DNA of 64,000 bases, from the NCBI GenBank assembly GCA_027019405.1, contig JALUWO010000057.1, positions 1 to 64,000 on the forward strand, in the 5' to 3' direction. This DNA comes from Candidatus Altimarinota bacterium. Lineage in GTDB: Bacteria; Patescibacteriota; Gracilibacteria; BD1-5; UBA6164. A program made the position numbers and the translations under genes. Of this stretch, positions 25,754-48,100 are shown piece after piece (the stretch's first letter is position 1; every line of letters starts with the position of its first letter). The notes under the pieces are model-generated. The model was not told where the DNA came from. It saw nothing but the letters and a program-made list of their open reading frames with translations, and did no database searches.

Positions 25754-27052
25754 ATGACAAATAAAGAAAAAGAAACACAATGATTTGAAACTTTTTTTAA
25801 TAGTCTAATTAATTCTCCAGAATATAAAGCAATGGTATGAGAATTTGATTCAGATAAAACTAAAGAACAATTAAATAAAGTAGATAAAACTATAAAAAAA
25901 GCTGGTGATATAATGTGAAATTTTAAAGATATTTTTGAAACTCCTGAAGTAATCCAAGCATGAAAAAATTATAAATGAACTTCTCAAGCTGAAACAAAAT
26001 TTTCTAAATCTAATGATGAAGATGAAAATAAAATGAATTTTGAAGTAAAATATTTTAAAGATAAAAATCCAAAAACTTGGGGATTTGCTTGAATTGCTTG
26101 ACTTGAAGATCTTAAACAAGAATTAAAAGAAAGTTTTGTGAATCCTTTAAAATTTAAATTTTTAGTTGATTCTTTAGAAAAAAGCCCTCTCTCAGTCTCT
26201 CCCCAAGGGAGAGAGGTAGAACAAAATAAAAATGAAATTTATTTAAAATTAAAACAAGCTTATGATAAATTAAAAGTTAATATTCCAACAGGGCTTTTAA
26301 TGTATGGTCCTCCTTGAACAGGTAAAACTTTTATAAGTAAAAAATTGGCTCAAGAATTATGAGCATGATTTATTTCAAAATCTATGTGAGAACTTGGAAG
26401 TAGTTATATACATCAAACTACTCAAAATATAAAAGAACTTTTTGATTTTGCCAAAAAAGAATCTAAAAAATGACCTATAATTTTATTTTTAGATGAAATT
26501 GATTCTTTAGTTTCAGCTAGAACTGATAGAGTTGATGCAAATAAAGCAGAAGAAGTAAGTCAATTTTTGCAAGAATTTAATAAATTATATGAAGAAGCTC
26601 CAAATTTAATAGTTATAGCTGCAACAAATAGACCAGATCATCTTGATTCTGCTCTACTTAGAAGTGGAAGACTTGATAAAAAAATCTATGTTTGACTTCC
26701 AGATTTTGAAACAAGAAAAGCTCTATTTAAGGTATTTATAGAAAAATTTGATAGACCACATTCAAAATTAAATTACAATAAATTAGCAGAACTTACAGAA
26801 TGATATGTAGCAGCTGATATAGAAAATATAGTTAAAGAAGCTTCAAGAGATGCTAGTCAATGAATTTTGGAACTAGTTAATTTAGTAGAAAATCAAAAAT
26901 GAGATAAAATAGATTTTGAAAAAATAAATAAAGATTTAGAAAAACATGTTTTAACTCAAGAATTACTAGAACAAGCAATAAAAGATACAACTAATTCAGT
27001 AAAAATGATTGATATGTCAGTATATGAGAAATGGAAACAAAAAGTAAGCTAG
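25754..27052 (+). CDS. AAA+ ATPase carrying an in-frame palindromic insert
   Basis: A 432-residue protein. The N-terminal 140 residues are charged and unfamiliar. The AAA core follows: LLMYGPPGTGKTFISKKLA (Walker A, about residues 184-202), IILFLDEIDSLVSARTD (Walker B), VIAATNRPDHLDSALLRSG (sensor 1) and SGRLDKKIYVGLPD (arginine-finger region). These are like FtsH/Cdc48-type single-ring ATPases but without protease or membrane segment. Just before the core, residues around 144-156 (SPLSVSPQGREVEQN) are encoded by a GC-rich palindrome. It is divergent from the TelA-like gene; an unfoldase or membrane-remodelling partner role is inference. Confidence 0.85.
26185..26216 (+). repeat. GC-rich palindromic element inside the AAA+ ATPase gene
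   Basis: CTCTCCC (26197-26203) and GGGAGAG (26207-26213) form a perfect hairpin, and CCTCTCTC (26186-26193) pairs with GAGAGAGG (26209-26216) as an alternative. It is followed by TAGAACAAAAT, a linker also found beside the related element at 46809-46896. The reading frame stays open through it. Its base composition is very unlike the surrounding AT-rich gene. Confidence 0.8.
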
Positions 27053-45144: not shown

Positions 45145-48100
45145 GAATTCAACACCTCCTCCCAAAACTCCAAACTATTTATCTTCTCCCAACTATCTTT
45201 CACTAATTCCTTAAACTCCTCATAATCTCAAGATTCAATAGAAACTGGAACATATTTGTATTCTCAGTTTTTTCATTCTACAAAATCTAGGGCTAATTCA
45301 GTGATATTGTATTTTGAACTAAACTCTGGATCATTTTCTGCTAAAAGTTTATAAAAAAGCAATTGCCTATAATACTTCCCTTCCTCAAAACTTTCTTTTT
45401 TGTTTCAATATCTATCTACTCATTTTATTTTTCATTCTGTCTTAATACTTCAAGTCTTATAATCAACAACAGCAACATCTTCTACAAATAATGCAGATTG
45501 ACCAACAGGGTGAACACCTAGGTTCCCCCCTACATTATCTTCTGTAGAGGCAGACCTATGTGTCTGTCCTGAATTTAAACTATCCCCTATCTTCTCAACC
45601 TTATCAACCTTACCAGTTATCCTAACTCACTCAAAAACAACATCTCTTGGTCTAAAATTGTACTCTACAGCTAGTGGGACTCTAGGATTTTTAGAGAAAA
45701 TTTCATAATATCAAGTAAGTCATTCTATTCATTTTTTAGTTAATCTATCTCTTTCTTCTGCTGTCAAAACTTGATATTTTAAAAGCTCAAGAAATTTTTC
45801 TGTCATTTCTCAAAGTGTAACCTTTTCTCATCTTATTTTAGCATTTGTAGCAAGTTCTAAAACTTTATGATAAACATTACCAAAAATAGTAAATTCATTA
45901 CCAGTAAAAGGATATTTAAACACAACATTTCTTAAAAATTGTTTTGGGTCTTCTAAAAATGTATTTAAATCAGTAGGACTTAATTTATAATTTTCTAAAA
46001 ATTCTTGAATATAATTTATTTCTTCTTTAGTAGTCTTAACTAAACTATCATGATTTCACAATAATTCATTTTTTAGTGTTTCAATTAATAAGTCCCCTTT
46101 CTCCCTTGGAGGGAAAGGGTTAGGGATAGGGGGAATTCATATTTCAAGTATAAATGGACTATCTATATAAGGTTTATTATCTTTACCTGCTGGTCTAGTA
46201 AAAATAAGCTCTTTTTTTGCTCTAGTCATAGCTACAAAAAATAGTCTTCTATCTTCTTGCAGCTGAGTTTCTTTTTCTATAGATTTTATTTCTTTTTCAT
46301 CTAATCATGCAAATTGTAATCAATTTCATGCAATTCAAAGAGGTAGTTTTAGTTTATCTATAACTCTTTTTGATTCCCAATTTCCACCATAAACTCCTGG
46401 AATATAAACATAATCATATTCCAGTCATTTTGATGCATGGGCAGTAAGTATTTCTATATTTGAATTAGTTTTTTTAAGAATTTGTCTAGAAATTCAGATA
46501 TTATATTTATTGTGTAATTCAAATTTATTTAATAATTCTTTCAAACTTAAATCAGGATTTTTTTCATTAAATTCTTTAATTTTATTAAAAAGAGTAAAAA
46601 CATCTTCCAAATCAGAAAAACTTCAATTAGTTTCTATATATTCTACTAATCAAATTTTATCTAAGATTTTTTGAAATAATCTAGAAATTCAATACAAACC
46701 AAGCTCAGAGTTTAATTCTAAAATTAAATCTCTAAATTCTATGATTTTTTTATAATCTTTATATTTTTCTTCAAGTTCTAATTCAAATAGGGCTTGTTTT
46801 TCAGAAATCCTCCTCTCAGTCTCCCCCAATGGGGGAGAAGAAACTTCATTTTGTTCTACTCCTTTCTCCCTTAGGGGGAAAGGTTGGGATAGGGGGATTT
46901 TATCAATATCCTTAATCAACTCCCACAAACTCAATAAAAATCCATTTCTAAAATAATTTTTCTTATATAATTCTTTGGATAAAGTAATCACATCAATATT
47001 TTCTACATCTACAATATCAGTCCTTAAAATATCTATTAATTTTTCATCATCAAAACTTGGATTTTCAATTAATCTCAAAAAATCCAAAATAAAATTTACA
47101 AATTTATTTTTTAAAATATTTGTTTTTAATTTACTTTCAACTTCAACTCACTGTAATTGCATAAATTTAGTCCATTCTTCTACTTCCTTATTACTTCTAC
47201 AAATTATTGCAAAAGTTTCAAGGTGAACACATAGGTTCACCCCTACACTATTTTCTGTAGGGGCTTCCTCCAGTGTCTGCTCTGATTTCTTCTTTATATC
47301 CTCCAAAACAAACAATTTCTCCAAAATCTCATCTTGCAAAATATAATATTTATTTTCTATATCTAAATCTTTTAAACTTGGATTTGAAGCAATTAATTCT
47401 TTTTTTAAATCTGATAATTTATTTACCAATCTTTGAGAATTATTTTCTATTAGATTAGTTGATAAATCCAAAATAGATTGAACAGATCTATAATTGTTTT
47501 TTAAAACAATAAATTTTGTATCTGGATAAGTATTCACAAAATCAAGCATATTCTCAATATTTGCCCCTTGAAACCTATAAATTGACTGATCATCATCTCA
47601 AACTACCATAATATTTTTAGTTTCTCAGACACTTAAAATCAAATCAATTAATTTATTTTGAGAATTATTAGTATCTTGATACTCATCAAGCATTATATAT
47701 TGATGTTTTTCAGCTAAATCATATCTTAAATCTTCATCATTTTCCAAAGCTTCCACTGTAAAATTTATCATATCAGAAAAATCATATAAAGCATTTTTTT
47801 TAAAATAATCTTGATATTCTTTATAAATCAAATTTAGTTCAATCAATTTTCAAATATGTTTTTTATAAATTTCACTATCTTTTTTAGTTCTTTTTTCTAA
47901 ATCTCTAATTCTTTTATTATTTTTTAAATCCTCTAATTTTTGATCATAGTGCAATCTTAATTCTGCAATTATTTTTTCAAATTTTTTAGGACTTACTCAT
48001 TCTCACTTTAATTTTCAAATTCTGTCTTTTATATCTCTTAGATACATATATCTATCAAAAGCATTGAATAAATATTCAATATTATTATTTTTAATATGTT

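Follow-up and report, generated by a model that had tools for sequence, protein, structure and literature searches.

Short palindromic elements lying in frame within conserved genes of Gracilibacteria that read TGA as glycine

The palindromic sequence found within an AAA+ ATPase gene of a Gracilibacteria bacterium is very probably a single insertion of a short, non-autonomous palindromic mobile element, kept in frame and translated as a tolerated loop. The gene is located in a window of 64,000 nucleotides, the whole stretch of DNA that was analysed, on the contig C57 (92 kb) of a 2.7 Mb draft genome (G000). The genetic code of this genome is code 25, with TGA for glycine, which is also the code of Gracilibacteria and Absconditabacteria; under the standard code the ORFs are broken and three of at least 150 aa are found at the positions 1-64000, versus dozens under code 25, which gives long ORFs. 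The reading frame of the ATPase across the hairpin is open solely with TGA as glycine, and the peptide of the element (Table 1) is predicted to be present in the host protein. The single-sequence AlphaFold2 prediction for the ATPase was of low quality (pLDDT 42) and was set aside.

Table 1. Features of the palindromic elements and their host genes in the window
Feature	Position	Strand	Basis or remark
Host gene: single-domain AAA+ ATPase, 432 aa under TGA=Gly	25754..27052	+	PF00004, E=3.9e-37
Type A palindromic element of 42 nt, 14 whole codons AGC..CAA, residues 144-157 (S144-Q157), SPLSVSPQGREVEQ	26183..26224	+	Limits inferred from the codon phase common to the copies
Inner hairpin TCTCTCCCCAAGGGAGAGA of the ATPase element	26196..26214	+	Sequence; hairpin scan
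3' tail GTAGAACAAAAT, common to the ATPase element and the 46.8 kb composite	26216..26227	+	
Second host gene: UvrD-like helicase with PD-(D/E)XK domain, 1119 aa	45135..48494	-	
Third window copy (type B43a), same UvrD-like helicase, read PPIPNPFPPREKG	46094..46136	-	
Inverted type A palindrome of the composite	46806..46842	+	55 bits with model R2, itself trained on 46806..46842
Type B palindrome of the composite, read IPLSQPFPLREKG	46859..46899	-	BLAST, covariance models

An earlier note on this DNA had placed a stem-loop inside the ATPase gene, at 26185-26230, and had related it to an element at 46.8 kb; both the location, in frame, and the kinship are borne out. The hairpin arm CTCTCAGTCTC is exact at 26189-26199 and 46813-46823, both on the plus strand, with no other site in the window even with one mismatch, at which tolerance 0.28 sites are expected and two are reached by 3 of 100 shuffles. 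The tail GTAGAACAAAAT is likewise exact at the ATPase element and at 46848-46859 on the minus strand, with no other exact window site; with one mismatch four sites are found in the window versus 1.33 expected. With the 46.8 kb element as a BLAST query against the whole genome, 26185-26230 was recovered at E=0.003, nine better relatives being located elsewhere, and Rfam gave no match in the window. The ATPase element represents a single type A palindrome with the tail, while at 46806-46899, in the UvrD-like helicase, two units are joined: a different palindrome, type B, with its tail, read on the minus strand, and then an inverted type A palindrome. This composite structure explains the linker that had been seen as inverted relative to the stem, and the one stem-loop family that had been proposed resolves into several palindrome subfamilies, the two elements having an arm and the tail in common.

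The dispersal that had been suggested from two sites extends far beyond the window, as the copies of types A and B were identified by BLAST and two covariance models both in the same genome and across further genera of the family, the best of them with E down to 1e-13 (BLAST, genome) and 1e-18 (covariance models). At the covariance-model E cut-off of 0.5, where the weakest matches are doubtful, type B gave 29 matches in G000, 100 in G011, 50 in G007, 32 in G004 and 22 in G008, and type A gave 44 in G004 and 39 in G011; most of the strong matches are within long ORFs. The units are 42-48 nt long, and two units head to head occupy about 90-110 nt. Their host ORFs are conserved genes, such as RecG, Mfd, UvrC, Tex, RsmB/F, Mur ligase and ApbE, and several copies fall between the Pfam domains of the host proteins. 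When 494 kb of the relative G011 were scanned for hairpins without bias, 58 GC-rich ones were revealed, versus none in the shuffled sequence. Of the 58, 40 are in ORFs and 91% of the scanned DNA is ORF, so that the hairpins overall are not concentrated in ORFs, and the distinctive point is how they sit within them.

Several arrangements were noted besides. A 2386-aa ORF of G011 with alpha-2-macroglobulin domains (C101; L237, 10900-17900) holds seven or more palindromic elements, drawn from four families. The same genome carries a near-perfect palindrome family CCCTTCCCTTA..TAAGGGAAGGG, mostly outside ORFs (L231, L257, L259), which may be terminators or a gene-averse family. Partial additional type A palindromes adjoin complete ones in G004 (L156, L160), which suggests local duplication of elements inside a gene. 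In G007 the paralogous genes of about 620 aa (L142, L144, L145, L147-L149) carry one and the same pair of elements in a common position, and the insertion was therefore copied along with the gene.

Within ORFs, the copies of each subfamily are nearly all in one frame, in agreement with the repeated frame-compatibility previously claimed: 18/20 for B41, 7/7 for B43a, 10/10 for B43b, 12/12 for D, and for type A 6/6 in G000 and G008 and 9/10 in G004, with the subfamilies partly delimited after the sequences had been seen and the copies within one genome not fully independent. Usually three to six frames are open per copy, on average about four of the six, and some of the used frames depend on TGA=Gly, e.g., SLPLGETEGG in G004. 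In family C, 26 of the 27 copies in ORFs have a 46-nt core in one frame, read LSPESSLPDREKGA or a close variant, whereas among the 18 copies outside long ORFs the core ranges from 46 to 49 nt and the frames are scattered; thus, the length and frame are constrained only where the element is translated. The exact type B core also occurs in Anaerolineae, Nitrospirota, Armatimonadetes and others. In Gracilibacteria, 25 of its 30 copies are in ORFs of at least 150 aa, mostly in the subfamily frame, versus 23 of 57 with scattered frames in the other phyla, where the in-ORF copies come largely from high-GC genomes, in which chance long ORFs arise.

The fixed frame of each subfamily is read here, with modest confidence, as a result of selection on the encoded peptide, so that copies in the other frames would have been selected against. 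Hydrophilicity was considered as the reason for the frame choice, but fails for B43b, B48 and type A in G004; the used frame ranks mostly fourth of five for B43b and B48, and simple selection on solubility is therefore insufficient. An unlikely alternative, though the best placed of those considered, is that the insertion machinery or a target motif sets the codon boundary on the coding strand, the frame being fixed at insertion. It would suit the tendency of the forward copies in A, B41, B43b, C and D to share one 3'-end phase (GTA GAA CAA / GCT ACA, ending at a codon boundary), as well as the different frames kept by B43a and B43b, though each could encode nearly the peptide of the other. 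However, the same core in other phyla and the C copies outside ORFs are without phase, out-of-frame insertions into genes would be removed by selection and so never be seen anyway, and no bacterial enzyme is known to us that inserts DNA according to codon phase. Slightly less credence still is given to the full form of this idea, namely mobile palindromes whose insertion would itself depend on the coding strand of the target and on its codon phase, so that the copies would arrive in frame and leave genes unbroken.

The search of 353 genomes of the class provided 29 orthologues of the ATPase, and in ten of the 29 genomes (nine with the congeners G004 and G122 taken as one) the linker before Walker A contains a palindrome. 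These are of several kinds: type A in G000, CCCCAACCCCTCCTTAATAAGGAGAGG in G008, a TTCGGG-containing element in G004 and G122, GTCATTCC..GGAATGAC in G018, GTCATTCTGAA.. in G028, GTCATCCTGAA.. in G086, GTCATCGCGA.. in G082, CCCCCCTCCTTACAAGGGAGGGG in G102, and three in a row in G093. The linker palindrome is absent in G103, of the genus of G008 and G102, and in G024 and G083, congeners of G028/G086 and G082, respectively. Across 25 orthologues the hairpins reach 3.2 per kb in the linker versus 0.8 in the rest of the gene (P=0.002), and the linker palindromes of G008 and G018, each searched in its own genome, are repeats with about 32 and 10 matches. The absence of the residues at about 140-158 from orthologues, proposed as a check in the earlier note, was found in part: the residues do differ there, in several orthologues being encoded by other palindrome families and in others without any palindrome, and no orthologue had the same residues from unrelated DNA; however, the absence is not a clean deletion. 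The palindrome-free linkers are about 18-29 aa, once 35, and hypervariable in length and sequence, so that the AAA+ site alone does not represent a clean insertion. No near-identical empty allele was present among the orthologues compared, and the net gain over most of the short unoccupied ones is 7-10 aa, less than 14.

A clean empty site is provided by the helicase, compared in four orthologues of 65-73% identity. At site 3, G008 reads AAA AAT AAA AAC AAT GAA straight through, while in G011 B43a and C stand one after the other between AAA AAT and AAT GAA, with no obvious target-site duplication. The palindromes at site 1 differ between G000, G011, G004 and probably G008, and more distant relatives have none there; site 2 is occupied by B43a in G000 and D in G008, with none in G011 and G004. 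Among 23 orthologous host pairs, elements of different families share the same site (within 8 aa) at 10 of 25 sites versus 1.14 expected, and at 6 of 21 versus 0.96 expected (Poisson P=0.0005) with one paralogue family collapsed.

The proposed course of events is as follows. Palindromic elements, probably moving by transposition, would land in genes of this Gracilibacteria lineage and persist where the added length is a whole number of codons and brings no stop; in tolerant linkers, at the surface or between domains, the kept elements would be translated as a loop rich in proline, glycine and charged residues. A small number of such linkers may be struck repeatedly by different families in different lineages, because an extra loop would be harmless there; retention would be by tolerance and not by benefit. 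It is improbable that the host uses the hairpin RNA or the peptide, e.g., for tuning of mRNA stability or as a docking loop: the elements are kept in many housekeeping and repair genes, at sites common to different genera, but the same site has different families, peptides and orientations, sister species are without any, and sequence-specific conservation is lacking. Very improbable also is translational bypass, as known from the mitochondrial byps, in which ribosomes would skip the hairpin and the insert would be missing from the protein. Short hairpin-forming inserts in conserved genes do resemble bypass elements; however, the skipped DNA is free of the whole-codon limit and need not be stop-free, whereas the in-ORF copies are whole codons without stops, constant in length and frame. 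An ordinary fast-evolving linker with hairpins arising by chance or convergence, for which the hypervariable length and sequence of the AAA+ linker might speak, is hardly credible, being refuted by near-identical DNA in unrelated genes and other phyla, while shuffled DNA has no comparable hairpins.

Mobilisation by a RAYT was considered for the inserted elements and rejected, since G011 and G004, which are among the genomes richest in copies, lack the Y1 transposase of the IS200/RAYT type (PF01797), and the stretches analysed around the Y1 genes showed none of the repeat families defined by regex. PF01797 matches are present in G000, G007 and G008; strong IS200-type matches were seen on the contigs C83, C95, C335 and C66 of G000, with no repeat copies seen on these contigs.

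The palindromic elements of Rickettsia and Wolbachia (RPE, WPE) are dispersed palindromes that lie in unrelated genes while preserving the frame; they encode a conserved peptide and are reported from solvent-exposed positions of the proteins (PMC3767692, PMC10969869). The Gracilibacteria elements appear to work like RPEs, the closest known kind, to which they are likened by behaviour and description: they too are palindromic repeats inside ORFs that leave the frame unbroken, and each family has its own conserved peptide, since the copies of a subfamily are read in one frame with few exceptions. Unlike the rickettsial RPEs of 100-150 bp, they have the shorter units and composites given above, reside in a TGA=Gly host where several families coexist, and the family found at a given site differs between genera. 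The GTAG- and CGTC-tagged REPs are short palindromes, single or head-to-head, some of them reported in genes, many of which are for replication and repair (PMC3733652). The Gracilibacteria elements share with the REPs of RAYT systems the short palindromes, single or head-to-head and some within genes, but REPs are mainly between genes, the Y1 transposase is missing from the copy-rich G011 and G004, and GTAG lies 3' of the hairpin in the forward copies, on the other side from the 5' tag of the GTAG REPs, and is absent from others. As in bacterial MITEs, the elements are small, non-autonomous, dispersed and with inverted repeats; no target-site duplication or parent transposon was identified for them.

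Protein-coding palindromes have been described mainly from Rickettsia and Wolbachia. In the open literature searched, no comparable elements were described for Gracilibacteria or Patescibacteria, though a description may exist elsewhere. The several palindrome families reported here lie in the genes of a distant, recoded bacterial group. Since the same core repeat is found without frame preference in other phyla, a natural experiment is offered on selfish DNA becoming protein sequence, and on whether the loss of one stop codon eases this conversion. If insertion were phase-specific, the copies would spread through the proteome without breaking genes. The recurrent use of the linkers marks insertion-tolerant sites in conserved proteins.
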